Source: a virus. From it: DNA of 61,575 nt. The position numbers and the translations under genes are program-made. Position 1 is the first letter of the stretch. Each line of letters opens with the position of its first letter. The DNA lies in IMG/VR virus record IMGVR_UViG_3300027743_000031, positions 1 to 61,575 of that record. One strand, written 5' to 3'. This document shows, one piece after another, positions 14,608 through 29,064 of the stretch. A model generated the notes under the pieces. That model did not search any database, had not been told where the DNA came from, and worked only from the letters and a program-made list of their open reading frames with translations.

Positions 14608-15003
14608 CTATTGTCGGATAGATATTGAATCTTCGAGGACGATGCACTTCACGGCCCACATCACCGTCTCCTCCAGGTGAGTCGCCGCCAGGCTGCGCTC
14701 GCGCGAGTCGGGGCAGTAGGAGGCGATCACCTTGGCCATGTCCTTGCCCGCGTCGCGGATCGCTTCGATGCGTTCGATCTGCTCGCGGTCGGGGGTGTGG
14801 TTGGTGAGTGAGTTGTCCAGCCGATCGAGCAACACCTGATCGACGTCTTCGTTGGCTTCGTAGGTCATCTCTGCGAATCCTTCTGTGTGCCGCCAGCCGG
14901 TTTGGTCAACCGCCGTTGGCCCGTGATCGTCACAGGCGAAGATGGCGAGGTCATTGCTGCCCCGCTGCCACGTTGCCTCCCGGGGGCAGACACCGCATCT
15001 CAT
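14608..15003 (-). CDS. Acb2/Tad1-like protein with N-terminal zinc knuckle (candidate cyclic-nucleotide sponge)
   Basis: 131 residues. The C-terminal half (residues about 68-125: REQIERIEAIRDAGKDMAKV, SYCPDSRERSLAATHLEETV, then MWAVKCIVLE) fits the Acb2/Tad1 hairpin family: two long helices joined by a CP-S-RE turn and ending in the EEA-MWA motif. Acb2 proteins bind cyclic di- and trinucleotides and blunt CBASS; Tad1 relatives bind gcADPR and block Thoeris. The first 45 residues hold C3, C6, C24 and H27 (MRCGVCPREA, FACDDHG), a probable zinc-binding fusion. The gene is coupled to terminase by ATGA and would be expressed late unless it has its own promoter. Ligand and activity are inference. 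Confidence 0.68.
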   Translation of the reverse strand: MRCGVCPREATWQRGSNDLAIFACDDHGPTAVDQTGWRHTEGFAEMTYEANEDVDQVLLDRLDNSLTNHTPDREQIERIEAIRDAGKDMAKVIASYCPDSRERSLAATHLEETVMWAVKCIVLEDSISIRQ

Positions 15004-16397
15004 CGTGTGAACCTCGCTCGGTTCATCAGCGAGGTCGCCAGGTGGCGGTCGCTGCGCTTGGTCAGGGTGGTGGGCGAGACGATCTCCGCGGTGCGGCTCT
15101 TGCCCATCAGTTCGGTCAGGCCGTGGACCAGCGCGTCCACCCGGTCGGGTGAGTCGCGGTCCTCGTACGGCTGCCAGGTCGTCATCTGCTCTTCCAGATC
15201 GAGCAACATGCCGACGTGGTGGACCTTGTGCTGTTCGTAGACGCCGACGATCGGCTCGGCGCGGAGGATCTTGCCGCGGCGGGAGTTGACGCGGATGATG
15301 CGGCGCTTGATCCCGGCTGAGCGCAGCGTGGACTCCACCATGTCGCCGCCGTAGTTGTCCTCAGCGATGATCGCGTCGGCGCTGAACTCGTCACAGGCTG
15401 CGTCGGCGGCGCGCGCCCACCCGTTGGGGCTGTACTTGCCGCTGCGGTCGGCCAAGACGTAGTACTCGCCATCGACGCCCTTGGCGCTGACGATGATGCC
15501 CGTCTCGTCGGACTTGCGGTTGGCCGTGCCAGCCGGGTCGATCGCGGTGATCACCCGCCACAGCGGCGGTGCCAGCGGCACGCGGTCGGGTTCGATCATG
15601 TCGTACTGCCACAGTGCGCCTTCGACGTCCTCCAGTATCTCCCCGAAGATTTCTTGGCGTCCCTTGCGCGTCCCTTCGAAGCGCTTGATGATCTGCTCCG
15701 CGAACGTCGGGGCGAGGTTGACCAAGTTGTCGTAGGTGGAGGCGGTGACGACCCGTGTCCGTGGGTCCTTGGCGAGCTCCTTCATCCACGGCCGCGGCTT
15801 GGGTGTGGTGGTGACGCAGATGCGGGGACGCTTGCCCATCCGCAAGCCGAACAGGAGGTTGTCCCACACCTCCTGCACCAGCGCCCAGTGAGCGGGTTCG
15901 TCACACCACGCGTAGCCGTGCTCCGGGCCACGCAGGCGATCCGGCTCTTCCGCGCTGTACGTCGTACCGATGCACCCGTTGGGCCACACCAACCGCCGCT
16001 TGGAGGGTTGGAAGTCCGGCCGCCAACCGGGCGGGGCGATCGTCAGCAGCCCGCTCTCGCCCTCCAACAGCGTGTCGCGCACGTCGGCTCCGGTGGCGGC
16101 GATCAGCGCGATGCGACCGACGTGTTCGGCCATGCGGTGGGTGAACTCGGACCCGGCGCGGGTCTTGCCCGCTCCACGTCCTGACTTCAGGCACCACACG
16201 AACCACGATGCGTCGGTGGGCGGGCGCTGGTCCTGGCGGGCGTGGTTCCACTCCCAATCGTCGTGCGGCAGGCCGTCGCAGTCCGCGATCGGGCAGTAGA
16301 ACGGACGCCAGGCGTCGTTGGTCGCCCGCTGCAACCGCTCCAAGGCGGCTTGCTGCGCTTGCGGGGTCCAGTTCTTGTAGGCGTCGAGGTCAGCCAT
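15000..16397 (-). CDS. Terminase large subunit (packaging ATPase and nuclease)
   Basis: 465 residues; ATG 16397 (MADLDAYKNWT) overlaps the upstream stop region. Walker A GRGAGKT at 73-79, Walker B ending in DE at 166-167 (GYAWCDEPAHW), coupling motif ICVTTTPKPRP near 193-203, and an RNase H-like nuclease with D287 (AIDPAGT), E346/D347 (IIAEDNYGG) and D418/D421 (DSPDRVDAL). It drives ATP-dependent DNA packaging at the portal and cuts the concatemer. The length is normal for the family and all key residues are present. Confidence 0.93.
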   Translation of the reverse strand: MADLDAYKNWTPQAQQAALERLQRATNDAWRPFYCPIADCDGLPHDDWEWNHARQDQRPPTDASWFVWCLKSGRGAGKTRAGSEFTHRMAEHVGRIALIAATGADVRDTLLEGESGLLTIAPPGWRPDFQPSKRRLVWPNGCIGTTYSAEEPDRLRGPEHGYAWCDEPAHWALVQEVWDNLLFGLRMGKRPRICVTTTPKPRPWMKELAKDPRTRVVTASTYDNLVNLAPTFAEQIIKRFEGTRKGRQEIFGEILEDVEGALWQYDMIEPDRVPLAPPLWRVITAIDPAGTANRKSDETGIIVSAKGVDGEYYVLADRSGKYSPNGWARAADAACDEFSADAIIAEDNYGGDMVESTLRSAGIKRRIIRVNSRRGKILRAEPIVGVYEQHKVHHVGMLLDLEEQMTTWQPYEDRDSPDRVDALVHGLTELMGKSRTAEIVSPTTLTKRSDRHLATSLMNRARFTR

Positions 16398-16707
16398 CGC
16401 CCCACCACCGTAGGACGTCCGGGTCGATGTCCGGGTCGAGGCACAGTTGGCTGTGGATCGCGCGCCGCACCCACGCCGCCATCGAACAGTCCGCCGCGCG
16501 GGCACGACGGGCCAAGTCGGCGTAGACCGCCTCCGGTGCTTCGAACCGAACCGCCCGGTGGCGGGGAACGAGGGCCAGTGCTTGCGCCTGCGTGTAGCCG
16601 GTCGCCCGGTAGCGCCAGTCGCGCTTCAGCGTCGGGTCGTCCAACAGCGCATCGACGTCGATGCCGTCGAACGGATCGTCAGGCGTTGACTTCTTCTGAT
16701 TCGGCAT
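16390..16707 (-). CDS. Ribbon-helix-helix-like DNA-binding protein
   Basis: 105 residues from ATG 16707, overlapping the terminase large subunit gene by 8 bases. Residues about 50-90 (HRAVRFEAPEAVYADLARRA then DCSMAAWVRRAIHSQL) have the strand-helix-helix layout of CopG/Arc-type regulators. Position between the two terminase genes suggests a packaging accessory or a regulator of the late operon; both are inference. Confidence 0.6.
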   Translation of the reverse strand: MPNQKKSTPDDPFDGIDVDALLDDPTLKRDWRYRATGYTQAQALALVPRHRAVRFEAPEAVYADLARRARAADCSMAAWVRRAIHSQLCLDPDIDPDVLRWWGDG

Positions 16708-18113: not shown

Positions 18114-18788
18114 CCGACGCCTCTTCTCGGCCCTCCCGGAGGGTGGTGAGTGGCGGCTATTGGGCTCAGTTGGCGGCTGGTTACTGCGTCAACCCCCGGA
18201 AGTACACCTGGTCAGCGAGCCGCTTCCAAGCCGGGGCCGATCCGTGTCACCCCGACCCCCCGGTGTGACAACCGTCACTAACAAACCCGTTGCATTCCAG
18301 CCGCCCGGCGGTTAGGATGGTGTCACCCCGGTTCGCCGGGCGGGCGGTCCGGTCTCCGGCCGCTCGGGGCCTCCCGCTCGTCGGGCTGGTCACTGATCGC
18401 CATAGGTCGCTTGCGGCCAAGGTCCATCCACGATGGCGTGCCCTCCACCTCGGTGGCGTGGGGCGAAATGGGCCTTGACCAGGGGCGATCGTTTACAGGT
18501 CTGAGGGCCACCAGCGCACGGAGCGCTCCAGCGATGGAGCCGCGATCGGGCGGTGAGGCTAAGGCAGGCAGGGAGTATGCGACGGTTCGTCTTCCGCTCC
18601 CGGTCCCCGTTGTCACGGGATCACGTGCTGACCCAGATACCTGCACAGTGCGTGCGCAGGGTGTCCCTCGATGGTCCAACTTTCGGTCGGCCGTTCCACC
18701 TTGGGTGGCGCTGGTTCGTGACCAGGACGGCTGGCCGCTTCCCTCAGAAGCGCGTCACCACGACGTATACCCCGAAAGGACAACCACC
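18114..18788. promoter_or_regulatory. 675-base control region: promoter, operator repeats and hairpins
   Basis: No supported gene. A good sigma-70-like promoter reads rightward: TTGCAT (18290-18295), 17-base spacer, TAGGAT (18313-18318). Just upstream lies an inverted repeat GTGAC-AACC-GTCAC (18265-18278), and an 11-base direct repeat GTGTCACCCCG flanks the promoter at 18244-18254 and 18320-18330. A CCCGG-TTCG-CCGGG hairpin (18327-18340) would start the transcript. CCGTATACGG is a palindrome at 18101-18110 and GTATAC recurs at 18765-18770. A short CCCTC/GAGGG hairpin near 18131-18143 may terminate the gene before. The remaining 400 bases show nothing firm. Confidence 0.55.
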
Positions 18789-19283
18789 ATGAGCAAGTTC
18801 CGTCTCCCCCTGACCGAGGCGTCCCCCGCAGTTGCGGAGTTCGTCAAGGCCAACAAGCTGACGAAGCTGCCGACCAAGTCGTACGCGGCAACGCTCGACC
18901 ACCACCACCTCTACGAGGCCCGGGAGGCAACGGATCACACCGATCCGAAGTCCCAGGAGGCTGCGTTCCGGTGCTTGGCCGAGATCACGCCTCGCCCTTC
19001 CACCAAGGAAGTGGCGTTCAGCCTCGGCTTCCACGCCCCCAAGTACGTGGGCATGGCAGCCAACGCATGGGCCGCGTCGATCGGGTCGGATGCCCACAAG
19101 AAGTACCCCAACCGTGCGTCGAGCACGGTGCCGAAGGAGAAGGCCGTGCTCCCCAGCGCTCTGCTGGCCGAGCTTGGTTCGCTCCGGACGAAGAAGGACA
19201 TCCTGGCCGCGATCGAGGCGCTGGTGCCGCAGGCACCGGTCGTCGAGGTCGTCGAGGCCAAGGTCACTGCCGACGTCGCATGA
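18789..19283 (+). CDS. Hypothetical protein, first large product of the rightward operon (164 aa)
   Basis: ATG 18789 follows GAAAGGACAACCACC. Protein starts MSKFRLPLTEASPAVAEFVK. The N-terminal third is basic and helical, the middle (EITPRPSTKEVAFSLGFHAP) polar, and the end (LAELGSLRTKKDILAAIEAL) a predicted amphipathic helix pair. Being closest to the 18.3 kb promoter it is probably abundant early, but no family is recognised. Confidence 0.6.
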   Translation: MSKFRLPLTEASPAVAEFVKANKLTKLPTKSYAATLDHHHLYEAREATDHTDPKSQEAAFRCLAEITPRPSTKEVAFSLGFHAPKYVGMAANAWAASIGSDAHKKYPNRASSTVPKEKAVLPSALLAELGSLRTKKDILAAIEALVPQAPVVEVVEAKVTADVA

Positions 19284-19370
19284 CGGTCGGGCGGCTAGTA
19301 GCCGCGGCCCTGAGCGGGCTCACCCTCGCTCAGGGCGCTGCGTCACCCTGACGCTACGAAAGGAACCACC
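19284..19370 (+). promoter_or_regulatory. Intergenic stem-loop element 1 (three hairpins)
   Basis: Three consecutive stems: GCGGCTA/TAGCCGC (19291-19305), a 10-bp perfect stem GCCCTGAGCG/CGCTCAGGGC (19307-19336, loop GGCTCACCCT), and GCGTCA/TGACGC (19340-19354). They are followed by CGAAAGGAACCACC and the next ATG. No U-tract follows, so these are not classical intrinsic terminators. Confidence 0.65.
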
Positions 19371-19688
19371 ATGAACACCATCATCGCCCTCGCTGTCGCT
19401 GCTTGCTCGGTCGTCGGATGCGCCCCCACACGGGATGCGGAGCCGCCAGCCAAGCCGGTCTGCGAGCCAGGCGAGGTCACCGTGTCGAGCGGTCAGCCGA
19501 CTCCGTGCGATCTCCAGTCCCCTGCCAACACGCTCACGCTCGTCTGGAATGCCGAGACCGAGGGCGAAGGCTGGGGCGGGGACGCCTCGGTGGCCAACGC
19601 CGAGGCCGCCGCGCTCGACGCTGGTTGCACGCCGTCGTGGATCAACGACGGCGACTACCGCCTCGTCGGTACGGGCTGCGACTTCTGA
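19371..19688 (+). CDS. Small lipoprotein
   Basis: 105 residues. The N-terminus MNTIIALAVAACSVVGCAPT has a hydrophobic core and lipobox SVVGC (Cys17). The mature domain has Cys pairs and an acidic WGGDASVANAEAAALDAGC stretch. It is predicted to be anchored outside the membrane; an exclusion or surface role is possible, but there is no specific match. Confidence 0.65.
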   Translation: MNTIIALAVAACSVVGCAPTRDAEPPAKPVCEPGEVTVSSGQPTPCDLQSPANTLTLVWNAETEGEGWGGDASVANAEAAALDAGCTPSWINDGDYRLVGTGCDF

Positions 19689-19774
19689 GCCACCCGGCTC
19701 GGCCCGGACGACCGTCGAACGTCGTCCGGGCGCTGCTCCCTCACACGGAGGGAGCTATCCCGAAAGGAACCAAC
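19689..19774 (+). promoter_or_regulatory. Intergenic stem-loop element 2 (CGTCGAAC octaloop)
   Basis: An 11-bp perfect stem GCCCGGACGAC/GTCGTCCGGGC (19702-19731) closes the loop CGTCGAAC. A second 8-bp stem GCTCCCTC/GAGGGAGC (19735-19755) follows, then CGAAAGGAACCAAC and ATG. The same loop with unrelated but complementary stems recurs at 20017, 20816, 21557 and 27207. Confidence 0.75.
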
Positions 19775-20008
19775 ATGCCAACCAAGACCACCATCACGAT
19801 GCCGACGCCGGTCGCGATCGAGGCAACTCGCTTCCCGACCGTCGCCGAGGCCACGGCTTTCGCCCACTCACAGGGCTGGGTCGTGTTCGTTCGTGGGGCC
19901 AAGAAGGCCAACGCCTTCGTCCCCGCGGAGACGCCGATGGCGCTCATCCTCGCAGGAGCCGAGGGCGATCGCTACTGGGCGGTCATGCGTCAGGTCACGC
20001 AGGGCTGA
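19775..20008 (+). CDS. Hypothetical protein (77 aa)
   Basis: ATG 19775 follows GAAAGGAACCAAC. Starts MPTKTTITMPTPVAIEATRF; compact alpha/beta pattern with VAEATAFAHSQGWVVFVRG and a terminal helix. It looks like a small soluble domain with an N-terminal strand pair. No family recognised. Confidence 0.65.
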   Translation: MPTKTTITMPTPVAIEATRFPTVAEATAFAHSQGWVVFVRGAKKANAFVPAETPMALILAGAEGDRYWAVMRQVTQG

Positions 20009-20083
20009 GCCCTGCCGGTCGGGTCGCCGTCGAACGCGGCCCGACCGCTGCTCCCCCAGGAGCACGAACAGGAGGAACCAACC
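20009..20083 (+). promoter_or_regulatory. Intergenic stem-loop element 3 (CGTCGAAC octaloop)
   Basis: An 11-bp stem GGTCGGGTCGC/GCGGCCCGACC with one T-G wobble (20017-20046) closes CGTCGAAC. A second 6-bp stem TGCTCC/GGAGCA spans 20049-20064. AGGAGG precedes the ATG at 20084. The arms differ from elements 2 and 4, so pairing is kept while sequence is not. Confidence 0.75.
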
Positions 20084-20584
20084 ATGAGCGAGCAATCGCG
20101 GCTCGACGCCGCGCGCCAGGACGACCCCGAGCTCAGCGCTCGGGTGCGTGCGAAGCGCGAGGCACGGCTGAACCCGACGCCCCCACCACGCCGCAAGACG
20201 CTGGCGCAGGTGCTGGCGGAGGAGGAGGCCGAGCGCGCCGGACAGCCGGTGTGGGTGGCCAGCCCGACAGCAGTCGGGGTGCCCAAGCTCGCACCGGGCC
20301 GGAAGCGCAAGAAGGCCAAGCAGCAACGCTTGGTCGGGTACGTCGAGGTCAGCGTCGAGGCCGAGCCTGTCAAGCGGCAGGCTGGGCGGAGGCGGATGCA
20401 GCAGGCCCCAGCGTGGAACGTCGCGCCGAACGAGGTGTCTCCGGACGCCAGGTTCGTGGCGATCTACGGGAGTCGGGGCGGGATGCTGACCGACAGCGAC
20501 AGGAAGCTGTGGCCGAAGCCCACGACCCGGATCATGGACCGTGACGGGCAGGTGCTGAAGCACAACGAGAGGGGTGAGCAGTGA
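20084..20584 (+). CDS. Basic hypothetical protein (166 aa)
   Basis: ATG 20084 follows ACAGGAGGAACCAACC. Very basic and Pro/Arg-rich (RVRAKREARLNPTPPPRRK, APGRKRKKAKQQRL), mostly disordered with a helix around TLAQVLAEEEAERA. Such charge suggests nucleic-acid binding. The C-terminal 50 residues (SPDARFVAIYGSRGGML) look more ordered. No family recognised. Confidence 0.6.
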   Translation: MSEQSRLDAARQDDPELSARVRAKREARLNPTPPPRRKTLAQVLAEEEAERAGQPVWVASPTAVGVPKLAPGRKRKKAKQQRLVGYVEVSVEAEPVKRQAGRRRMQQAPAWNVAPNEVSPDARFVAIYGSRGGMLTDSDRKLWPKPTTRIMDRDGQVLKHNERGEQ

Positions 20585-20808
20585 CCATCGAGCACGTCGT
20601 CGCGACCAGCGTGGCGAGCGGCGATGTCCTCCGCGTGAACATGGCCCCGACCCCCAAGGACGACCCGCAGTATGAGTGGCGGACGGTCACTCAGGTGCGG
20701 ACGGGCACCGAGATCGTGGCGATCACGATCGAGGGTGCCGCAGGCGAACGGCAGAAGGTGGTCACGCACGTCGTGACGCTGGGCTGCCGGATGCAGGTGT
20801 GCCGCTGA
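20581..20808 (+). CDS. Hypothetical protein (75 aa)
   Basis: GTG 20581 overlaps the previous stop by four bases. Starts MTIEHVVATSVASGDVLRVN and is almost all beta (WRTVTQVRTGTEIVAITIEG, KVVTHVVTLG), resembling a small SH3-like or OB-like barrel. No function assigned. Confidence 0.6.
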   Translation: MTIEHVVATSVASGDVLRVNMAPTPKDDPQYEWRTVTQVRTGTEIVAITIEGAAGERQKVVTHVVTLGCRMQVCR

Positions 20809-20886
20809 GCCACCGGGACCGGGCACCGTCGAACGTGCCCGGTCCGCTGTCCCCACCGCTGGGGACGACACGAAAGGAACCCAACC
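20809..20886 (+). promoter_or_regulatory. Intergenic stem-loop element 4 (CGTCGAAC octaloop)
   Basis: A perfect 11-bp stem GGACCGGGCAC/GTGCCCGGTCC (20816-20845) closes CGTCGAAC at 20827-20834. A second perfect stem GTCCCC/GGGGAC lies at 20849-20866, then CGAAAGGAACCCAACC and ATG. This is the cleanest member of the family. Confidence 0.78.
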
Positions 20887-21168
20887 ATGACCACCCAACC
20901 CATCGACGAGAACGTCGTCAGCGCGCCCTGCGTGCAGACGATCGACCTCGATTGCGCCCCCGGAGCGACACGTCCCGGGGACCTGATCGACGGCGTGCTG
21001 GAGGGCACCGGACTCGTCCCCTTGGGCGAGCCGAGCAAGTTCTTCGGCAACTGGTGCTGGGCGTTCGACTGCCCCACTGAGGAGTGGAAAGAGCGCGTCC
21101 AGCCGATCATCATTCCCCGGATCAAGGCGCTCTATGCGACCGGCTTGATCCGCTACGGAAGCTGGTGA
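20887..21168 (+). CDS. Hypothetical protein (93 aa)
   Basis: ATG 20887 follows GAAAGGAACCCAACC. Starts MTTQPIDENVVSAPCVQTID. Contains GNWCWAFDCPTEEWKERVQP and a C-terminal helix; three Cys and many Trp. No family recognised. Confidence 0.6.
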   Translation: MTTQPIDENVVSAPCVQTIDLDCAPGATRPGDLIDGVLEGTGLVPLGEPSKFFGNWCWAFDCPTEEWKERVQPIIIPRIKALYATGLIRYGSW

Positions 21169-21443
21169 GCGCCGTGAGTGACGTCGAGCAAGCACCGCGC
21201 GACACGCCGACGTGCGTGTGGGAGGAGTACCACGACGACATGTACCGGGAGTTCGCTCCCGAGCCGATCGTCGTGGAGTGCGAAGCCCCAGCGCAGTACG
21301 AGATCTCGTACTACGACGCGCACAACCCAGAAGGCAATGTGCTGTGCCGGGATGTGATGTGCGAGTCGCACTTCCTCCCGGCCATCCACGGACTGACCCG
21401 CGAGCGGAGCGTGAGCAGCATCACGTTCCGGAGGCTCGCATGA
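21165..21443 (+). CDS. Hypothetical Cys/His-containing protein (92 aa)
   Basis: GTG 21165 overlaps the preceding stop (GTGA); a second GTG at 21174 is possible. Contains CVWEEYHDD, IVVECEAPAQYEI, VLCRDVMCESHF: spaced Cys/His suggestive of a treble-clef zinc site. No family recognised. Confidence 0.55.
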   Translation: MSAVSDVEQAPRDTPTCVWEEYHDDMYREFAPEPIVVECEAPAQYEISYYDAHNPEGNVLCRDVMCESHFLPAIHGLTRERSVSSITFRRLA

Positions 21444-21550
21444 ACCAGTGCGAGGCCCGCAACCCGAACGCTGGCGGTCGCTGCCAGCGCCCGGCGACGC
21501 AAGTCGTCAACGGGCAACACCTGTGCGACATTCACGCCCGACGCGCGTAA
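21440..21550 (+). CDS. Tiny zinc-knuckle protein (36 aa)
   Basis: ATG 21440 overlaps the previous stop (ATGA) and follows GGAGGCTCGC. The product carries C4, C14, C29 and H32 (MNQCEARNPNAGGRC, HLCDIHARRA), a C-x9-C-x14-C-x2-H site. Similar miniature knuckles are common in actinophage early regions. Confidence 0.6.
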   Translation: MNQCEARNPNAGGRCQRPATQVVNGQHLCDIHARRA

Positions 21551-21622
21551 GCGTCGGCCCCGATCACGGTCGAACGTGGTCGGGGCGCTGCCCCACCCAG
21601 GGGCGAGAAGGAAGGAACCACC
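21551..21622 (+). promoter_or_regulatory. Intergenic stem-loop element 5 (GGTCGAAC octaloop)
   Basis: An 11-bp stem GCCCCGATCAC/GTGGTCGGGGC with one T-G wobble (21557-21586) closes GGTCGAAC, differing from the other loops only in its first base. A 5-bp second stem GCCCC/GGGGC is at 21590-21604, then GAAGGAAGGAACCACC and ATG. Confidence 0.72.
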
Positions 21623-21823
21623 ATGACCGACAAGCACACGACCACCGTCGTGCAGTCGCGCCCTCCCTGCGACATCTGCGGGGAGCCAGCGCAGTACGAC
21701 GCCAAGACCAAGCACGGGCCGTGGGGCTGGCTGTGCCAGGCCGACTTCGACAAGCTCGGAGTCGGACTGGGGCTGGGCCTCGGCCAGAAGCTGATCGTCA
21801 CCGACGAGGGGGCGATCGCATGA
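21623..21823 (+). CDS. Small zinc-ribbon protein (66 aa)
   Basis: Starts MTDKHTTTVVQSRPPCDICG. A CDICG knuckle and WLCQADF motif are spaced like a zinc ribbon. The C-terminus is Gly/Leu-rich (GVGLGLGLGQKL). ATGA overlap with the next gene. A nucleic-acid or protein adaptor role is possible. Confidence 0.62.
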   Translation: MTDKHTTTVVQSRPPCDICGEPAQYDAKTKHGPWGWLCQADFDKLGVGLGLGLGQKLIVTDEGAIA

Positions 21824-22098
21824 CACCAGCGTTCACGCTCCACAACTCGGGCGGGATCGTCAGCCTGGATGGGCCGGGGGGTCGCTACGACGCCCCGGTC
21901 CACGTCTGGGAGGCAGCGCTGGGACTGACCAGCGTCGAGCTTCTCGCGCGCTGGGACGACGTGTACCAGTGGCCCAACCGAGCCGACGAGGAAGACGTCG
22001 CACAGTTCCGTGCCGACTTCATCGCTCTGCCTCACGCGGCGCAAGCCGTGATGGTCGCGGAGTGGGAGGGCGACACCTTCACACCACCGAAGCAATGA
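21820..22098 (+). CDS. Hypothetical protein (92 aa)
   Basis: ATG 21820 overlaps the previous stop. Starts MTPAFTLHNSGGIVSLDGPG; strand-rich start, then helices (VELLARWDDVYQ, DVAQFRADFIAL). No family recognised. Confidence 0.6.
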   Translation: MTPAFTLHNSGGIVSLDGPGGRYDAPVHVWEAALGLTSVELLARWDDVYQWPNRADEEDVAQFRADFIALPHAAQAVMVAEWEGDTFTPPKQ

Positions 22099-22111
22099 GA
22101 AAGGAACCAAC

Positions 22112-22300
22112 ATGGACCGCACGTTGAAGGGGAGGCGGATCAGAGTCGACTACTGCTCTGATCCGCACACGCGACTGGACTCTGGCGAGGAAGGCACGAT
22201 CGATTTCGTGGACGACCTCGGCACGATCCACGTCACGTGGGACGGGGGGAGCAAGCTCGGCTTGGTCCCCGGCGAAGACAGGTGGACGGTGCTCACATGA
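22112..22300 (+). CDS. DUF4314-family protein (62 aa)
   Basis: ATG 22112 follows GAAAGGAACCAAC. The protein matches the DUF4314 pattern: KGRRIRVDYCSDP, GEEGTIDFVDDLGTIHVTWD, and SKLGLVPGEDRW, which together form a small SH3-like barrel. The family is widespread in phages and plasmids, with unknown function. It overlaps the next gene by ATGA. Confidence 0.72.
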   Translation: MDRTLKGRRIRVDYCSDPHTRLDSGEEGTIDFVDDLGTIHVTWDGGSKLGLVPGEDRWTVLT

Positions 22301-22809
22301 CCGCCACCGCGCCCAAGCCGTTCGAAGGGACGGACGAAGAGAGGGACCGCAACCGAGCCACCCATCAGTGGCGACAGGTCAGCGAGGACGGGGACTTCGC
22401 CTGTATGAACTGCGCCGCGGAGACGTGGCACGCAGCGGCGAACTACCCGTGCGGAGCGCCGGTGCCGAGGATGGAGTACCTGCCCGGTGTCGAGGGACCG
22501 GCCAGTTCTCCGTTGGAGGTGACGACCGACAGCGAGCCGAACGTCGAGATCCGCGACCTGAAGTCGGGGATGCTCTGCGTGTGCCTCTACACGGCGGTGT
22601 TCACGTCGTTGCAGCACGCGGTGATGGCCGCGGGGTCGATCCTGGAGAGTCCGGGGTGGGCCGGGGGGACGCGGCTGGCCGTGTTCGCTCGGGACCGGGA
22701 GTTCTATGAGCTCCTCGACCTCGACGAGTTCCAGCGGGTCGAACCGCACGCCGACATCAGCGATCGCATCGTCGCTCTGCTGATCAAGGACACGACACCG
22801 GACGAGTGA
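22297..22809 (+). CDS. Hypothetical protein (170 aa)
   Basis: ATG 22297. Starts MTATAPKPFEGTDEERDRNR. Residues 25-50 hold a zinc-type CMNCAAETWHAAANYPC motif. The second half (SGMLCVCLYTAVFTSLQHAV, LDLDEFQRVEPH) is mixed alpha/beta. No family recognised. Confidence 0.6.
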   Translation: MTATAPKPFEGTDEERDRNRATHQWRQVSEDGDFACMNCAAETWHAAANYPCGAPVPRMEYLPGVEGPASSPLEVTTDSEPNVEIRDLKSGMLCVCLYTAVFTSLQHAVMAAGSILESPGWAGGTRLAVFARDREFYELLDLDEFQRVEPHADISDRIVALLIKDTTPDE

Positions 22810-22877
22810 TCGTCCCGCCCGTGCGAGCGTCACACCTCGCTCGGGCACGGCGCGCGCCGCGCGCAGAAAGGAACCAC
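22810..22877 (+). promoter_or_regulatory. Intergenic stem-loop element 6
   Basis: An imperfect long stem around CGAGCG/CGCTCG (22824-22843, loop TCACACCT) extended outward by CCGTG/CACGG with a GG bulge, followed by a GC-only hairpin (about 22850-22864) and AGAAAGGAACCAC before the ATG. Same layout as the others but with a different loop. Confidence 0.6.
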
Positions 22878-23111
22878 ATGACCAAGCAACAACAGCGACC
22901 CGTCACAGAGTCGGCGCTGGCTTCCACTGCCAAGGCGGGCGACCGCTGGTGGCAGAGCGATGACTGTGTGCTCATCAACGAGGTCGTCGTCACCGACGAC
23001 GCCGTGAAGGTGAGCGGCTACATCGTCAAGGGCTGGGGAGCCAGTAAGAAGCTCCGTCACTGGTCGTTCATCCTCGACCAGATGTTGGAACTGGAGAGGG
23101 GAAGAGCATGA
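22878..23111 (+). CDS. Hypothetical protein (77 aa)
   Basis: ATG 22878 follows GAAAGGAACCAC. Starts MTKQQQRPVTESALASTAKA. Core GDRWWQSDDCVLINEVVVTD, then VKVSGYIVKG and LRHWSFILDQM, suggests a small beta barrel plus helix. ATGA overlap with the next gene. Confidence 0.6.
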   Translation: MTKQQQRPVTESALASTAKAGDRWWQSDDCVLINEVVVTDDAVKVSGYIVKGWGASKKLRHWSFILDQMLELERGRA

Positions 23112-23410
23112 CCGACGAACAACCCGAGGTGTGGGTGCTCGTCAACCAGGGCTTGGCGAGTGCCGAGCCACGGCTGGAGCATCTGATCGGCACCTACCTG
23201 CTATCGAGCGACGTCAATGCGCGCGACGGCAGGGGCGCGGCGGAGTGGACCAGGGACTTGGACAAGGCGCAGAAGTTCCCGTCGTTCGCGCAAGCGTTCG
23301 ACGAGTGGCGCAGGCAGTCCGACGTCACACCGTTCCGTGACGACGGCTACCCCAACCGCCCGCTGACGGCGTTCAGCGTCGAGCCGAGGAGGGTCGATGC
23401 CACGTCGTAG
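23108..23410 (+). CDS. Hypothetical protein (100 aa)
   Basis: Starts MTDEQPEVWVLVNQGLASAE. Acidic and helical with KFPSFAQAFDEWRRQSDV; resembles small 'VLVxxG...W' early proteins but no family is recognised. Overlaps the next gene by 14 bases. Confidence 0.6.
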   Translation: MTDEQPEVWVLVNQGLASAEPRLEHLIGTYLLSSDVNARDGRGAAEWTRDLDKAQKFPSFAQAFDEWRRQSDVTPFRDDGYPNRPLTAFSVEPRRVDATS

Positions 23411-23717
23411 GTACTACCGACCAAGCGGAGACTCGCACGCCGACTTCATGCGGTGCCGGACCTTCGGCCACATGATGGACGACATCCCGTCAGAGGACGA
23501 CACCGGCTACGGCGACCCGCTGTGGGTTCGGTGCATGCGCTGCGGGACCGAGCGCCACGACGGCATCGGCTCGTCGGGGCAGGTCGTCTATCGGCGGTAC
23601 GTCTACCCGGAGGGGTACAAGGACGCCTTCCGCCACGAGGGCGACGAGCCACCGTCGCGTTCGGACTACCGGATGCTGCTCTTGCAGCAGAAGATCCGTG
23701 AAGCGAGGCAGGCGTGA
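23397..23717 (+). CDS. Zinc-binding hypothetical protein (106 aa)
   Basis: Starts MPRRRYYRPSGDSHADFMRC. C20 with CRTFGH and WVRCMRCGTERHDGI form a Cys4/His-type site of the sort found in many actinophage HNH-like or zinc-ribbon proteins. C-terminal helix RSDYRMLLLQQKIREAR. No catalytic motif seen. Confidence 0.6.
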   Translation: MPRRRYYRPSGDSHADFMRCRTFGHMMDDIPSEDDTGYGDPLWVRCMRCGTERHDGIGSSGQVVYRRYVYPEGYKDAFRHEGDEPPSRSDYRMLLLQQKIREARQA

Positions 23718-24088
23718 TGAAGTGCCGCTTCGACCCGCACCACAAGACCGAGTTCCCGAACGCGGTCGCGCTCAGCCAGCACTACATCGCTGAGCACGGC
23801 GACGTGTACTCGCCGCCACAGCGGCTGCCGTGCCCGGAGTGCGGCAAGCCCGTGTCCGAGCACGGGATCAAGGAGCACATGAAGCGCCAGCACGGAGCGG
23901 CCTCTGCGGAGGTCGTGCCCGTGCAGGCGAAGAAGGCCCCGCCCCAGCGGGAGCCGTGGAATCCGAAGCAGGTCGTCGTGCCGGTGGTGCGCGAGCTCTT
24001 CGGGGAGCAAGTCCCGACAGACAGCTTGGGCGAGGTCATCGACTTCGCCGAGGCCACCCGAAGGCTCATCGAGAGGAGTCAGCAATGA
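23717..24088 (+). CDS. C2H2-like zinc-finger protein (123 aa)
   Basis: ATG 23717 overlaps the previous stop (TGATG). The N-terminus (MKCRFDPHHKTEFPNAVALS, QHYIAEHGD) and middle (LPCPECGKPVSEHGIKEHM) are zinc-finger-like; the second finger has C-x2-C and H-x3-H spacing. The C-terminus is a helix (EVIDFAEATRRLIERS). Probably DNA or RNA binding. Confidence 0.62.
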   Translation: MKCRFDPHHKTEFPNAVALSQHYIAEHGDVYSPPQRLPCPECGKPVSEHGIKEHMKRQHGAASAEVVPVQAKKAPPQREPWNPKQVVVPVVRELFGEQVPTDSLGEVIDFAEATRRLIERSQQ

Positions 24089-24462
24089 AGGGCATCGCCA
24101 TCACGGCCATCCAGATCGCACCTGGAATGGTCGGCACCAACATCGACCCGTGGGAAGGCGAAGGCTTGCACGACCTGCAAGCCTTCGTCGGGGGCTTGAT
24201 CGAAGCCATCCCCACGGACGAACGAGTGACCCTGTGGGTCAACGAAGAGGGCAAGTACCAGGGCCTGCCGCGCAACCGCGTGGCCGAGAACGTGTGGCGT
24301 CTGTTCGACAGCTACGGCTGCCTCGCCAGCGGGGACTACATCGTGGGCAACATGCTCATCACCGGACCACCCGATGCGTTCGGTCGGACCACGGACGTGC
24401 CTGAGTTCCTGATCGAGGAGATCATGGAGGCTGCGGGGAAGCTCGATGACCCGCGACCGTGA
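24085..24462 (+). CDS. DUF3846-like protein (125 aa)
   Basis: ATG 24085, ATGA overlap. The central pattern (TLWVNEEGKYQGLPRNRVAE, then GDYIVGNMLITGPPD) resembles DUF3846 proteins in phages and mobile elements, which share a 'GLP-N' motif before an 'I-G-A/M' strand. Function of the family is unknown. Assignment is by eye. Confidence 0.5.
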   Translation: MKGIAITAIQIAPGMVGTNIDPWEGEGLHDLQAFVGGLIEAIPTDERVTLWVNEEGKYQGLPRNRVAENVWRLFDSYGCLASGDYIVGNMLITGPPDAFGRTTDVPEFLIEEIMEAAGKLDDPRP

Positions 24463-25663
24463 CCGCAAGGCGTGGGCGGGCATCGGGCCTGCGGTGGACG
24501 CTCATCTCCATCGGTGGGACCAACTGCACCGAGTGCAGGAACCGGCCAAGCTGCTCTCGCGCTCGCTGACGGACAAGTCCATCGACAAGCGGGCGCTGGG
24601 GCGAGCGGTGAACGTGCCAATCCTTCAGTCGTGGGTGCAGTTCTCGATGAGCTACGGGATCGTCACGCAGAACGGCGTGCCGATGTTGATGGGCGCGGTC
24701 CATGAGGGGACCACGATCAGCGGCAAGGAGACGTTCGAAGCGGAGGCGGTCGCGCTGCCGATGGCGGGCAACTTCGCTCAGCGCGAGCACAGCATGCTCG
24801 ACCGGGCCGTGACCCACTACATCTCGGCCGAGATCGTCAACGAGATCGACCTGGCAGTGCAGAGCACGACGTGTGATCCGCTGTTCGAAACGGACCTGTT
24901 CACACCGGTCGGCTTCGCCGTTCTGGAGGAGCCGTTCTTGGTCAACGACCTCGACATGGACACGGGCCTGCCCACCGACAACATCTGGCTGGGCATCCGT
25001 GCGTTCGGGTGGCAGCGCATCGAGCGCATCGGTCACGCCGACGACAACCAGGCGCTGCCGGGGATCGAACTGTTCCTCTACACGACGCCCGAGGACTACG
25101 AGTCCATCTACATCGAGTCGTTGATCGACGCGGGGCACGAACCACCGGACCATCAGAACCCGGTCAGCAACTTCCTCATCATCGAGGTCGTGCCGTGGCG
25201 GTTCGGCTCGCAGTGGGACATCAACGACGAGTCACCGGAGTACGTGGCCGGGTTCTTGCCGTCGCCGGTCGCGCACCAGCGCAAGTGGTTCCACACGTTC
25301 ATGCGCTTCTGCTGGCAGGAGATCATCCATCACCAGCGGCACGCTCCCGAGCGTGCAGAGCGGCGGGAGTGGGAGCGGTTGGCGAAGAAGAAGGAACTGC
25401 TCGACTACACGACGCTGCGTCTGCGGCGCTACGTCGATCCCGAGCACGTCGCCTACGAGGGCGGCGGTGTCCCGCTCACACACCGGGTGAAGGTGCGCGC
25501 GCACTGGACGCGGCAGTACTACCCGACGATGGGTCCGGCGCGGTTGCCGGACGGACGAATGAACCCAGACAGTCATCGCCTGATCTGGATCGAGAGCTAC
25601 TGGAAAGGCCCCGAAGACGGGCCTCTCGGTGCAATGCACGCGGCCACGTCGGTCGTGCGCTGA
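24446..25663 (+). CDS. Large hypothetical protein conserved-looking in actinobacterial elements (405 aa)
   Basis: Starts MTRDRDRKAWAGIGPAVDAH. Two parts: a long N-terminal alpha/beta region (residues 1-280) and a C-terminal segment (RVKVRAHWTRQYYPTMG, RLIWIESYWKGPEDGPLG) that recalls a tail found on replication/transfer-associated proteins of actinobacterial plasmids and phages. No catalytic motif is apparent. It is the longest gene before the ATPase and overlaps its neighbour by 17 bases. Confidence 0.6.
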   Translation: MTRDRDRKAWAGIGPAVDAHLHRWDQLHRVQEPAKLLSRSLTDKSIDKRALGRAVNVPILQSWVQFSMSYGIVTQNGVPMLMGAVHEGTTISGKETFEAEAVALPMAGNFAQREHSMLDRAVTHYISAEIVNEIDLAVQSTTCDPLFETDLFTPVGFAVLEEPFLVNDLDMDTGLPTDNIWLGIRAFGWQRIERIGHADDNQALPGIELFLYTTPEDYESIYIESLIDAGHEPPDHQNPVSNFLIIEVVPWRFGSQWDINDESPEYVAGFLPSPVAHQRKWFHTFMRFCWQEIIHHQRHAPERAERREWERLAKKKELLDYTTLRLRRYVDPEHVAYEGGGVPLTHRVKVRAHWTRQYYPTMGPARLPDGRMNPDSHRLIWIESYWKGPEDGPLGAMHAATSVVR

Positions 25664-25680
25664 ACAAGGAAGGAACCAAC

Positions 25681-25944
25681 ATGCCCGACTCGACAACTCT
25701 CGGGACGACCTACGACGAGCGGCTCAACGCGATGATCGATCTGCTCGACGGATGGGTGCTCATCAGCGATGCGATTTCGCGTCGCCTGCACCCGACAGGG
25801 ACCGTGCATCGGCGTCACCCAATCTGGCTGACGCCGATGTGCAACCACAGCAATGGACTCAACGAGTTCCACATCGGCACGTTCCACGAGCTCGCCTCAT
25901 GCGAGCACCGCTGCGCTCTCTGTGAGAGGGCGGTTGGGTGGTGA
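25681..25944 (+). CDS. Hypothetical protein (87 aa)
   Basis: ATG 25681 follows AAGGAAGGAACCAAC. Starts MPDSTTLGTTYDERLNAMID. The end (CEHRCALCERAVGW) is a Cys/His knuckle. The gene is immediately followed by the six-hairpin region. Confidence 0.6.
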   Translation: MPDSTTLGTTYDERLNAMIDLLDGWVLISDAISRRLHPTGTVHRRHPIWLTPMCNHSNGLNEFHIGTFHELASCEHRCALCERAVGW

Positions 25945-26139
25945 TGGGCTGACCAAGATCGCCGGGTGAGGAGCGGGAATTCCTCCACCCGGCAGCCCGC
26001 ACAGGAGCGGACACCTGTGCGGGCATTGCCTGGCGGGAACCAGGCGGTGCGACGGCGGATGTCGCACCGGGTTGGGCGGGGATCGAGTATCCCGCCCATC
26101 CACCGCGCCCACAGTGGGCGCTCTTGAAAGGAACCAGAC
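25945..26139 (+). promoter_or_regulatory. Array of six tandem stem-loops (element 7)
   Basis: In about 160 bases: stem 1 GCCGGGTG/CACCCGGC (25961-25993), stem 2 GCCCGCACAGG/CCTGTGCGGGC, perfect 11 bp (25995-26024), stem 3 GCCTGG/CCAGGC (26028-26045), stem 4 GGTGCGAC/GTCGCACC, perfect 8 bp (26046-26068), stem 5 GGGCGGG/CCCGCCC (26074-26097), stem 6 GCGCCCA/TGGGCGC (26105-26121). The next gene's GAAAGGAACCAGAC follows at once. No ORF or tRNA shape is seen. This could be a structured non-coding RNA or an unusually strong processing/termination block. Confidence 0.72.
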
Positions 26140-26784
26140 ATGACCGAAGAACACAACACCGAAGCCGTGATCGAGTCGCTCAGAGTTCTCCAGTTCGGAG
26201 GCGACGAGCATCTCGGGTTCACGACAACACACGAGGGTGGGGCATCACTGACCCACGCCGAACTGTGCTCGTACCTCTACTCGGCGTCGTGCGCGCTGCG
26301 TCACTTCACCTCCACCGAGGAGGAGTTGCGCCGTGAGCTCGGGTCAACGCGCGAGTCGTTGCGGCTGGCGCAGATCGACGTGGCCGCCAAGAGCGACGAG
26401 ATCCTCGCGGCTCGCACCGAACTGGCGGAGTTCCGTGACGACCACGCGCTGGTCGTTGATTCTCAGGCGGTGATGAACACAAACCTGTTCGAAGCGCGGC
26501 GGGACTTGGGGATCATTGCCGAGGCGCTCCGCGAGGAAGCCACGAAGCGGGAGTGGTGCTCGGAGTACGAGGACTTCGTCAACCGCGTCAACCACATGAC
26601 GACGGGCAATCACCTCGTCCCGTGCTGGGTCAACCGGAGCCTGACGTTCACCGTGCGGGTGAACTTCACCGCTTCGCGCGATCAGGTCGGGACGTTGGAG
26701 GAAGAACTCAGGGAGCAGATGCGCGATCTGAGCCTGGACGGCGTTGAAGACCTCAACGTCGATGTCGCAGTCACCAGGGGCTGA
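26140..26784 (+). CDS. Coiled-coil hypothetical protein (214 aa)
   Basis: ATG 26140 follows GAAAGGAACCAGAC. The middle (residues about 50-130: TEEELRRELGSTRESLRLAQ, DEILAARTELAEF) is a heptad-rich coiled coil; the C-terminal part (SLTFTVRVNFTASRDQVG, LREQMRDLSLDGVED) is alpha/beta. Probably oligomeric. No family recognised. Confidence 0.65.
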   Translation: MTEEHNTEAVIESLRVLQFGGDEHLGFTTTHEGGASLTHAELCSYLYSASCALRHFTSTEEELRRELGSTRESLRLAQIDVAAKSDEILAARTELAEFRDDHALVVDSQAVMNTNLFEARRDLGIIAEALREEATKREWCSEYEDFVNRVNHMTTGNHLVPCWVNRSLTFTVRVNFTASRDQVGTLEEELREQMRDLSLDGVEDLNVDVAVTRG

Positions 26785-26796
26785 GAAAGGAAGGCC

Positions 26797-27198
26797 ATGA
26801 ACGAGTCAGTGGTGTCGATAGCCGACGCCGCCGCTGCTCTCGGGGTGAGCCGACAACGCGTCGAGAAGCTCATCAGCGAGGGGAAGTTGGTGGCGGTCGA
26901 GCACCATCGGCACCGATACGTGACTCTTGCGTCCATTGCTGCACGACAGCAGGGGCCGCCCCCCACGGAGCGCCTGACGACCCGGCAAGTAGCCGAGAAG
27001 TTGGGCGTTGCGGCGGCGACCGTGAACACCTACAGAAAGAAGGCGCTGCTCCCTGGAGCAGTGAAGGAAGGGAACACGTGGACGTTCCCGCCTGACGTGC
27101 TTGATGGGTGGGACAGGCGCAAGCCCGTCGTCGCCTTGCACGCACGGCAGCAGCCGTACAACCAAACCCGCTTGCGAAGGCTACGCCCCAAGGCGTAG
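26797..27198 (+). CDS. Double helix-turn-helix regulator (MerR/excisionase-type)
   Basis: 133 residues with two HTH modules: residues 7-50 (SIADAAAALGVSRQRVEKLI) and 60-105 (LTTRQVAEKLGVAAATVNTY). Tandem MerR-like wings without a ligand domain resemble phage excisionase-type or early regulators. A perfect CTACGCC/GGCGTAG hairpin overlaps the stop codon (27181-27198). No integrase is present, so a transcription-control role is favoured over excision. Confidence 0.68.
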   Translation: MNESVVSIADAAAALGVSRQRVEKLISEGKLVAVEHHRHRYVTLASIAARQQGPPPTERLTTRQVAEKLGVAAATVNTYRKKALLPGAVKEGNTWTFPPDVLDGWDRRKPVVALHARQQPYNQTRLRRLRPKA

Positions 27199-27283
27199 TC
27201 CTTGCCGCCCGCGTCACCGTCGAACGTGACGTGGGCACTGGTCGCTCCGATCCGCGGTGCGACCGAACTGGAAAGGAACCATC
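27199..27283 (+). promoter_or_regulatory. Intergenic stem-loop element 8 (CGTCGAAC octaloop)
   Basis: An 11-bp stem GCCCGCGTCAC/GTGACGTGGGC with one G-T wobble (27207-27236) closes CGTCGAAC. A second stem GGTCGC/GCGACC spans 27240-27264. GGAAAGGAACCATC precedes the ATPase start. This member lies over 5 kb from the others, showing the element is dispersed rather than a local duplication. Confidence 0.75.
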
Positions 27284-28777
27284 ATGGCCCGAACCAACAA
27301 GGCGGAGGACCCGGACAGTCCCGCCGCGATCCGAGAGTCGCAGATGCTGCTGCTCGCGGAGATCGGAGGGAAGCTGCTTGGCGAAGAGGACATCACGTTC
27401 TCGGGCACCAAGTTCGTCCTTCCGGCAAAGCTGGACCTCGATCAGTCGATCGAGTTCCTGGAGCAGCGTCGGAACGATGAGCAGACGGTCAACCGCTTCG
27501 TGAAGACGTTTCCCTACCGTCCGCTGGATGGCGCTCGCGCCACGATGCAGGCGATCAAGGAGGCGTTCGGCTTCACGCTGGGCAAGACCATCTACTCGTT
27601 CTGGGGCAACACCCCGCCCACCTTCATCGACTGCCGCTACGGCCCTGGCCGTGACGACACCGAGCAGGTGCCGTGGGGGGCAATGCAGATCCCCGGCTTT
27701 GAGAACACGAGCGTCTACCTCGGGGCGGAACACCACCCCGAGTTGGGCAACTGCTTCAACATCAGAGTCGAGTCGCCCCGCAAGTACAGGTTCCACATCG
27801 AAGGGCTGTTCCGGCTCATCGCCAAGAACCTGGAGGAGCGGAGCATCTACCGGGGCAAGGCGCTCGACGGTGCGGCCGAGCCGAACTTCATCGACACCAC
27901 ATCGGTGGCGACGGAGGACGTCGTCTACACCAGCGAGGTCACGGCGCAGTTGGAGGCCAACGTGTGGTCTCCGATCAAGCACGCCGAGGCGTTGACCAAG
28001 CTCGGCCAGCCCGGGAAGCGGACGGTCCTCTTCGAAGGTCCGTACGGCACCGGCAAGTCGCTGGCCGCGCTGCTCACCGCGCAAGTTGCGGTGGCCAACG
28101 GGTGGACGTTCTTGCTCTGCCGTCCTGGCAAGGACGACTTGAACGTGACGATGCAGACGGCGCGCATGTACCAGCCCGCCGTCGTGTTCTTCGAAGATCT
28201 CGACACCGTTGCTCAGCCGGGCAGCAGTGACGACATCTCGCAGATCCTCGATATGTTCGACGGCATCACCACCAAGGGGCTGCAGATGCTCCTGGTGCTG
28301 ACGACGAACCACGCCGAGCGCATCCACAAGGGGATGGTGCGGCCTGGCCGTCTCGACGCGGTGATCCACGTCGGTGAGATGGACCGGGCCGGTGTCGAGC
28401 GACTGACACGCCGAGTGATCGGTGATGCGCTGGCGTTCGACATCGACTTCGACAAGGTGTTCGTCGCGATGGATGGGTACATGCCCGCCTTCGTGAAGGA
28501 AGCCCTGGACCGTGCGATCCGCTACTCCGTCTCGTTGAACGACGGCGCGGTTGGTCGCATCGACACCGATGCTCTGGTGTTGGCGGCGTCTGGTCTGCGT
28601 GACCAGTTGCGGCTGATGATGGGCGCATCGGACGTCGAGGTCGAGCCGACGCTGGACCGGGTGTTCTCCCGCGCCATCACCAAGGCGGCGACGAACGTGT
28701 TGTACGACACGGCCGTGGCCGATTTGGACGATGGCTACCAGCGCTGGCAGTTGCAGAAGAAGGAGCCCCAGGACTGA
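27284..28777 (+). CDS. AAA+ ATPase
   Basis: 497 residues; ATG 27284 follows GGAAAGGAACCATC. The C-terminal half is a classic AAA+ module: Walker A GPYGTGKS (252-259), Walker B VFFEDLD (301-307), sensor-1 VLTTNH (338-343) and arginine-finger region RPGRLD (353-358). The first 240 residues are a unique substrate or partner domain. The style is that of FtsH/katanin-like remodelling ATPases found in actinophages, and it could unfold proteins or remodel nucleoprotein during early infection. The target is unknown. The gene is preceded by element 8 and followed by element 9. Confidence 0.82.
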   Translation: MARTNKAEDPDSPAAIRESQMLLLAEIGGKLLGEEDITFSGTKFVLPAKLDLDQSIEFLEQRRNDEQTVNRFVKTFPYRPLDGARATMQAIKEAFGFTLGKTIYSFWGNTPPTFIDCRYGPGRDDTEQVPWGAMQIPGFENTSVYLGAEHHPELGNCFNIRVESPRKYRFHIEGLFRLIAKNLEERSIYRGKALDGAAEPNFIDTTSVATEDVVYTSEVTAQLEANVWSPIKHAEALTKLGQPGKRTVLFEGPYGTGKSLAALLTAQVAVANGWTFLLCRPGKDDLNVTMQTARMYQPAVVFFEDLDTVAQPGSSDDISQILDMFDGITTKGLQMLLVLTTNHAERIHKGMVRPGRLDAVIHVGEMDRAGVERLTRRVIGDALAFDIDFDKVFVAMDGYMPAFVKEALDRAIRYSVSLNDGAVGRIDTDALVLAASGLRDQLRLMMGASDVEVEPTLDRVFSRAITKAATNVLYDTAVADLDDGYQRWQLQKKEPQD

Positions 28778-28836
28778 TTGCCCCGCCCGCTCGCCCCTGT
28801 CATGGGGGCGGGCGGGCACCTACAGAAAGGAACCAC
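28778..28836 (+). promoter_or_regulatory. Intergenic stem-loop element 9
   Basis: A single 13-bp stem GCCCGCTCGCCCC/GGGGCGGGCGGGC with one T-G wobble (28785-28817) closes the loop TGTCATG. AGAAAGGAACCAC follows. The same CTGTCATGGGG sequence forms the loop of the hairpin at 38501-38524, so a second loop class may exist. Confidence 0.65.
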
Positions 28837-29064
28837 ATGACGACCGAAGAGAATTCAGAGAGGGGCGACAGTTGGGAGCAGCAATTGTTCGACGCTGCCA
28901 AGGCGCGACGCGCGGTGAAGCTCGACACGGGCGAGGAAGTGAAGCTCGTCTATGCGCCGCACCCTGGCTACGACCCACGAATGGCGCGTGTTCGCGACGG
29001 CCGAGACGGCCGCGGGAGGGTGCGGTCGATCGACCCCAAGAGCATCGTGGAGATCCTGCCATGA
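28837..29064 (+). CDS. Hypothetical protein (75 aa)
   Basis: Starts MTTEENSERGDSWEQQLFDA. A helix then strands (VKLDTGEEVKLVYAPHPG) and a basic RVRDGRDGRGRVR turn, ending SIDPKSIVEILP. Small beta-barrel-like. ATGA overlap with the next gene. Confidence 0.58.
   Translation: MTTEENSERGDSWEQQLFDAAKARRAVKLDTGEEVKLVYAPHPGYDPRMARVRDGRDGRGRVRSIDPKSIVEILP

Follow-up and report, generated by a model that had tools for sequence, protein, structure and literature searches.

In phage T7, long RNase III sites (~20 bp with an internal loop) lie between the early genes and give rise to separate messages, and in mitochondria tRNAs between the genes of polycistronic transcripts serve as punctuation. Phage genomes also contain the start-associated sequences (SAS) and extended start-associated sequences (ESAS); in Cluster K mycobacteriophages these include an inverted repeat of conserved sequence (17 bp), for which a role as an RNA hairpin is little supported according to the authors (PMC3203893). 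RNase P cuts hairpins consisting of the acceptor stem and T-arm of a tRNA, along which it measures 12 bp (PMC11143913), and the bacterial enzyme also acts on some mRNAs and phage-induced RNAs (PMC4919922). The subject here is a family of intercistronic hairpins, termed H1, in the phage contig IMGVR_UViG_3300027743_000031 of IMG/VR (61,575 bp; 66% GC), the whole of which is called the window. H1 occurs in the leaders of small plus-strand genes, in a run beginning at ~18.4 kb, and is strongly supported as an RNA family of the coding strand rather than copied DNA.

The H1 leaders resemble the SAS/ESAS of Cluster K (PMC3203893) and of Cluster EF Microbacterium phages (PMC7302621) in having a repeated, conserved ribosome-site motif before selected starts, in gaps of >50 bp, with many copies per genome on the gene strand and, as in Cluster K, an inverted repeat a short distance 5′ of the motif. 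They differ in that the H1 stem is free in sequence and compensated throughout with its loop core kept, and in the motif itself, the published consensus motifs being GGGATAGGAGCCC and GGGAAAGGACCCC as opposed to GAAAGGAACC here (PMC3203893, PMC7302621). As a sequence family H1 appears to be new; as a kind of device it varies on intercistronic signals for processing or starting that are already known. It adds a covarying, well-supported RNA family to phage genomes, where the repeats described earlier (SAS/ESAS and others) were DNA-level ones with no assigned function.

The original prediction listed five of these hairpins, at 19702, 20017, 20816, 21557 and 27207, and all five were found there with 11 pairs each (G.U allowed). 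Their arms differ yet remain complementary, with 5–9 of 11 bases shared pairwise and 52 of 55 pairs Watson-Crick, the other three being G.U, and all five leaders form more stable folds than their dinucleotide-shuffled versions (z −2.8 to −5.0). When 34 H1 hairpins from the window and its relatives were aligned in one frame, the family was seen to consist of 12 pairs closing a 6–7-nt loop, NUCRNN. Among the 23 copies of exactly 30 nt, 96% of the cells are paired, a percentage that must be discounted in that it is partly built in, the H1 outside the window having been collected by structure. The same copies have 100 double-change cells, distributed over all 12 helix pairs, and a covariation of 0.99; shuffled controls with swapped arms gave 57% paired cells, 32 double changes and a covariation of 0.25, and slid structures reached at most 0.17. 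The window's five had themselves been picked by their loop. A test on loop words picks by sequence alone and is therefore free of structure bias. The flanks of GUCGAA pair at 9 or more of 11 positions in 8 of the 9 copies lying 25–85 nt upstream of a ribosome site, as against 3 of 75 copies elsewhere and 4 of 122 on the other strand, and the flanks of UUCGCC are paired in 5 of 7 copies near ribosome sites versus 4 of 126 elsewhere.

The strand that is under selection can also be read from the hairpins. G.U outnumbers A.C by 51 to 9 in 51 hairpins located with a finder that scores both alike, and an excess of this size argues for selection on coding-strand RNA. A covariance model built from H1 only (R1) recovers the hairpins in the window and its relatives and little elsewhere, with two matches at E ~0.8–0.9 in 1.06 Mb of sphingomonad loci. 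That H1 might instead be a DNA element copied around the genome, such as a protein-binding inverted repeat, a single-stranded DNA hairpin or a REP-like (repetitive extragenic palindromic) mobile repeat, is suggested by the several copies per genome and the nearly identical loops of the window's five. This explanation is hardly credible, however, given that the stems differ and are compensated, that the loop is always oriented with transcription, that G.U so exceeds A.C, and that R1 scores the coding strand above the opposite strand for every H1 of the window. On this point the original prediction, which spoke of an RNA signal and not copied DNA, is borne out.

An 8-nt loop with a single first-base change had been described for the five hairpins, and this is accurate for them: CGTCGAAC is found in four and GGTCGAAC at 21557, corresponding to RNA loops CGUCGAAC and GGUCGAAC, respectively. 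Pair 12 is a C.C mismatch in five H1 copies of the window, and the single base change at 21557 turns this mismatch into a G-C pair, resulting in a 12-bp stem with the hexaloop GUCGAA. Across the family, the idea of a fixed loop survives only as the NUCRNN core, since CGUCGAAC is one member among others and the loop varies between and within phages, even before orthologous genes. U-C-R is present in 32 of the 34 aligned loops and C-R in all 34, and most of the loops are GUCGAA (8 copies), UUCGCC (6), UGUCGUG (3), UUCGCCC, CUCACC or GUCACA. Pair 1 is G-C in 30 of 34 and never C-G; pair 4, formed for example by window positions 19705 and 19728, is just as strict as the end pair, being C-G in 30 of 34 and never G-C; and all other pairs vary freely. 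Loop-loop kissing through UCGA was rejected as a general rule, most loops of the family lacking UCGA, and CsrA-type GGA loops, boxB and put sites do not fit in loop or layout.

Relatives of the window were reached by several routes. An exact search of IMG/VR for the loop and ribosome site (CGTCGAACG N26–56 AAGGAACC) returned 90 stretches, none properly paired (best 8 of 11) and all attributable to chance, and these were reused as negative controls. With the ATPase encoded in the window and a 405-aa protein as queries, a close sister and a single distant match were obtained, and an alignment of the terminase led to ~80 viral loci. The sister phage (L004, L104, L105; ATPase 81% identical) has the same layout with different loops, and the unit is also present in the terminase relatives L130/L278, L129/L282, L163/L276, L127/L281, L124 and L108/L119. 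When 0.49 Mb of sequence from relatives was searched by structure, disregarding loop sequence, 39 leaders were located, and U-C-R is in the loop of 37; the same search located 2 leaders, neither with U-C-R, in 5.1 Mb of controls composed of the chance loci, sphingomonad loci and six cultured actinophages (bases counted on both strands). The loop GUCGAA is shared with relatives, and the loop of H1 at 22817 is identical to that of L104:14541 in the sister phage. Cultured actinophages, which had been put forward as a place to look, gave a different outcome: no leader with a purine-C after the stem was found in the scanned stretches of Tank, TM4, Tempo, Fryberger, McProf and Kithara, the 50 kb of TM4 scanned contained no leader of the H1 kind, and cultured phages showed no DNA-level match.

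Four genes of the window have sister-phage homologues that are likewise preceded by leaders, with differing loops and stems. The loop before the ATPase gene is CGUCGAAC in the window and GUCAUA in the sister; the corresponding loops are CGUCGAAC and CUCACC for gene 19775, GGUCGAAC and UUCGCU for gene 21623, and AUCGAGUA and AUCGCUA for gene 26140. That orthologues keep their leaders with different loops suggests that a gene retains its unit, the loop of which may drift within the pattern. A search with the protein family of gene 19371, aimed at more such slots in other phages, led to a single locus already in the set.

H1 is one part of a larger cassette, in the order H0, 0 or 1 nt, H1, R-C-(U/G), H2, 1–6 nt and ribosome site (Table 1). 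The five leaders listed originally all fold as H0-H1-H2, so that the second hairpin reported after each stem is indeed present, and the unit extends beyond what had been described, to a third hairpin (H0) and three further copies (19307, 22817 and 26070). H0 is a small hairpin usually located at or just past the stop codon of the upstream gene, the stop codon often lying in its loop. It scores at least 14 in 21 of 38 leaders, whereas displaced positions reach this score in 19% of cases and shuffles in 16%; 16 of the 21 are flush with H1 or separated from it by a single nucleotide. H1 is nearly constant in length (30.2 ± 1.0 nt; 30–31 nt in 34 of 38), and the adjoining H2 is variable (17.3 ± 3.1 nt). 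The bases 3′ of H1 are R in 35, C in 35 and U or G in 34 of 36 leaders, the third being U in 22, G in 12 and C in 2. Finally, the ribosome site GAAAGGAACCA occurs 15 times at no more than one mismatch, against 0.29 expected. The same site had been claimed for all five original leaders; two carry it exactly, two are one base off, and the leader of H1 20017 has AGGAGGAACC.

Table 1. Coordinates of the leader cassettes in the window, listed in order of position.
Feature	Position	Strand	R1 score (bits)	Remarks
H0	19291..19305	+		ends 1 nt before H1
H1	19307..19336	+	32.8	loop CUCACC; additional copy
H2	19340..19354	+		after linker GCT
Ribosome site	19358..19368	+		GAAAGGAACCA
H0	19686..19701	+		starts at stop codon; flush with H1
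H1	19702..19731	+	38.1	loop CGUCGAAC
H2	19735..19755	+		after linker GCT
Ribosome site	19762..19772	+		GAAAGGAACCA
H0	19999..20015	+		GCAGGGC-TGA-GCCCTGC; loop = stop codon; 1 nt before H1
H1	20017..20046	+	37.4	loop CGUCGAAC
H2	20049..20064	+		
Ribosome site	20070..20079	+		variant, AGGAGGAACC
H1	20816..20845	+	36.0	loop CGUCGAAC
H2	20848..20867	+		
Ribosome site	20872..20882	+		GAAAGGAACCC
H0	21539..21556	+		stop codon TAA in loop; flush with H1
H1	21557..21586	+	37.3	12 bp; hexaloop GUCGAA; one-base-change copy
H2	21589..21605	+		
Ribosome site	21610..21620	+		GGAAGGAACCA
H0	22800..22815	+		GGACGA-GTGA-TCGTCC; stop codon in loop; 1 nt before H1
H1	22817..22846	+	35.8	loop CGUCACAC; additional copy
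H2	22850..22864	+		
Ribosome site	22866..22876	+		GAAAGGAACCA
H0-position hairpin	26045..26069	+		flush with H1
H1	26070..26101	+	22.1	loop AUCGAGUA; additional copy
H2	26105..26121	+		
Ribosome site	26126..26136	+		GAAAGGAACCA
H0	27174..27205	+		14-bp stem, the 3′ arm containing stop codon TAG; separated from H1 by 1 nt
H1	27207..27236	+	33.3	loop CGUCGAAC; precedes AAA-ATPase gene 27284–28777
H2	27239..27265	+		
Ribosome site	27271..27281	+		GAAAGGAACCA

Such an arrangement invites the view that the hairpins are structural insulators of translation initiation only, which would shield the ribosome site from the upstream frame or from long-range pairing, with the loop kept for folding stability (a U-turn) and no trans factor involved. 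The leaders are always preceded by a stop codon and followed by a ribosome site, a hairpin is present in every gap of >50 nt in the 19–29 kb region, and the ribosome site just downstream of H2 stays mostly open in folds. A plain insulator, however, would need neither a fixed length of 30–31 nt, nor U-C-R in nearly all loops, nor R-C after the stem, and H1 makes no use of the widespread stable tetraloops (GNRA, or UUCG with a closing C-G pair), although GCAA occurs in H2. Insulation as the sole function is accordingly considered improbable.

Another conceivable role is in transcription, as terminators, attenuators or antitermination sites. The terminase gene (15003–16505) and the tail genes (51–61 kb) lie on the minus strand, and the leaders' gaps on the plus strand measure 70–87 nt in seven of eight cases and 195 nt for the leader of 26070. 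Stable, GC-rich coding-strand hairpins that directly follow stop codons would be in keeping with such signals. They lack a U-tract, however; a terminator scan (GC hairpin plus U-tract) of the plus strand from 18300 to 29000 found no site; 18.3–29 kb was found to hold no sigma-70-type promoter that would call for a terminator downstream; and two or three serial hairpins followed by a ribosome site are unsuited to termination. A transcription signal is thus very unlikely, and antitermination in particular, one of the three roles offered in the original prediction, finds no support. The 195-nt gap (25945–26139) is unusual in its own right, containing about six hairpins in series before the ribosome site (z −6.9), of which H1 26070 is the next to last; one of the others, at 25995–26024, has an 11-bp stem and an 8-nt loop, AGCGGACA, that is not of the H1 loop family.

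What H1 does resemble is half a tRNA. Its 12-bp helix has the length of stacked acceptor and T stems, the U-C-R of its loop corresponds to T-loop positions 55–57, the G-C of pair 1 matches the end pair G1-C72, and the R-C that follows matches R73-C74. Moreover, a search for a T-arm joined to a 7-bp acceptor, in which the T-loop pattern was imposed and the acceptor and position were left free, found seven D-armless tRNA-like elements of 63–87 nt in four relatives, where shuffles predict 0.6 over all genomes and the opposite strand of the same loci has none. Six of the seven align as a 7-bp acceptor, a middle arm and a 5-bp T-arm, with the normal D-arm absent, and the bases 3′ of them are AC(U/G) in six and GCG in one. 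Four occupy the H1 slot, with a hairpin and ribosome site directly after. One of these elements (L282) precedes an orthologue (48% identity, E 7e-15) of window gene 19371–19688, which is itself preceded by H1 19307; the L282 element has two alternative acceptor pairings, and hence its exact fold is ambiguous. Together, the size of H1, its G1-C72 pair, the following R-C and the tRNA-like elements in its slot point to mimicry of a tRNA, specifically its T-arm, over a dedicated phage loop-binding protein.

Several observations weigh against this likeness. The 3′ RCCA of a tRNA is not found, position 75 being U or G in 34 of 36 cases with the CCA part absent; the loop lacks U54, mostly lacks A58 and usually has 6 nt rather than the 7 of the T-loop UUCRANN; and pair C4-G69 is as biased as G1-C72, for which tRNA mimicry gives no reason. 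Nearly half of the leaders have a weak H0 or none, and neither ARAGORN nor Rfam calls a tRNA in the leader slots of the relatives. Within the window, ARAGORN and the Rfam tRNA model likewise find no tRNA gene, and Rfam 15 at its gathering threshold has no match in the window or in seven loci of relatives. The missing U54, A58 and CCA are among the grounds for the main rival, in which a 12-bp stem of fixed length presents the U-C-R loop to some other phage- or host-made factor (an RNA-binding protein, another RNase or a tRNA-modifying enzyme) that binds or cuts there, the T-arm likeness being convergent or incidental. A loop core that is fixed while the stem varies, a fixed stem length and the orientation bias of pairs 1 and 4 are all compatible with this rival, which is possible, if rather unlikely. 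Against it, tRNA-like elements with the same R-C-(U/G) 3′ rule share the slot, in one case before an orthologous gene. In addition, a Pfam scan of 10 proteins from the early and middle genes showed no known RNA-binding family, a weak negative given that most early proteins lie outside the scan and that most phage proteins match nothing.

Among the roles of processing, antitermination and translation that were originally proposed for a loop-binding protein, processing fits best, and a role in translation initiation may also exist. The most plausible explanation, if still a tentative one, is that H1 mimics a tRNA between cistrons and is a substrate of RNase P, with mimicry as its function suggested by its geometry and cutting predicted. 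The cassette would stand between translation units in early phage messages that are polycistronic, with H1 imitating the acceptor/T-arm half of a tRNA through its 12-bp stack, T-loop-like cap (U55-C56-R57), G1-C72 and R73-C74. The tRNA machinery of the host would recognise it, in the simplest case through an RNase P cut 5′ of G1, the predicted cut site being exactly the first base of each H1. After such a cut, the upstream message would end in H0 just past its stop codon and the downstream message would have the base-paired 5′ arm of H1 at its start and, after H1, the hairpin H2, which would keep the ribosome site open. A cut before G1 would thus place H0 at a new 3′ end and H1 at a new 5′ end, and give a role to each of the three hairpins.

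Known RNase P substrates, including acceptor/T-arm model hairpins, intercistronic sites of bacterial operon mRNAs and the C4 RNA of P1/P7 (PMC11143913, PMC4919922), resemble H1 in the 12-bp helix, T-loop-like cap, G1-C72, 3′ purine-C and intercistronic place. H1, which is predicted to be cut, differs in having no CCA, a 6-nt loop without U54/A58 and a cassette repeated in phage messages. Mitochondrial t-elements (PMC4919922) are also tRNA-like structures between the genes of a polycistronic transcript, and here the forms range from a hairpin to a D-armless element; the present ones belong to a bacterial phage and are not tRNA genes, ARAGORN finding none in the slots. With the RNase III sites of T7, H1 has in common that both are repeated intercistronic hairpins, and it differs in its 12 bp and conserved loop. 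A literature search, with most subscription journals outside its coverage, found no description of phage messages punctuated by tRNA-like structures or carrying RNase P signals in repeated form. The H1 family suggests a concrete mechanism for start-associated elements of this sort. If RNase P does cut H1, tRNA punctuation, as known from mitochondria, would become a systematic device of phage gene expression. The cassette would also offer a small, naturally occurring means of dividing polycistronic messages.

Some of the tRNA-like RNAs have a further feature. Those at L119:3163–3231, L279:18054–18119 (minus strand) and L276:6136–6203, all D-armless, contain GTTCCTTTC (or GTTCCTTA) in the loop of the middle arm, an exact or near complement of these phages' ribosome-site motif GAAAGGAAC, and L004:20098 has the same complement word within a structure closed by 12 bp. 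They recall the C4 antisense RNA of P1/P7. A search of the window for an RNA complementary to the ribosome-site motif gave no candidate, the matches to GGTTCCTTTC at no more than one mismatch being all on the minus strand and none on the plus, and nearly all of them mere complements of the ribosome-site copies. A broader and more doubtful proposal is that an uncultured group of actinophage-like viruses punctuates its long early messages with tRNA mimics, from D-armless forms to 12-bp minihelices, at which host RNase P would divide them into separate messages, and that some of the tRNA-like RNAs could act in trans on all leaders through the ribosome-site complement in the anticodon-position loop (GUUCCUUUC against GAAAGGAAC).

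Other features of the window deserve mention. The AAA-ATPase has homologues of ~33–40% identity in Gordonia, Mycobacterium and Pseudomonas phages, and its gene is followed by a very stable hairpin of 14–15 bp, both in the window (28785–28817) and in the sister phage (L004:11496–11529), which directly precedes GAAAGGAACC without an H2. On the minus strand, 9587–11953 encodes a 789-aa virion-type protein that contains a 2′-5′ RNA ligase domain and weakly matches MuF-like proteins; it may be compared with a gene annotated as RNA ligase near the terminase of the Curtobacterium phage Kithara. Two perfect inverted repeats lie one after the other at 35573–35659, the first of 14 bp (GCGGTTTCCGCGGG-ATAAC-CCCGCGGAAACCGC) and the second of 10 bp. 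Finally, a perfect 11-bp stem at 43575–43604 has the loop TATGGGTC, which would contain the ATG of the open reading frame at 43587.

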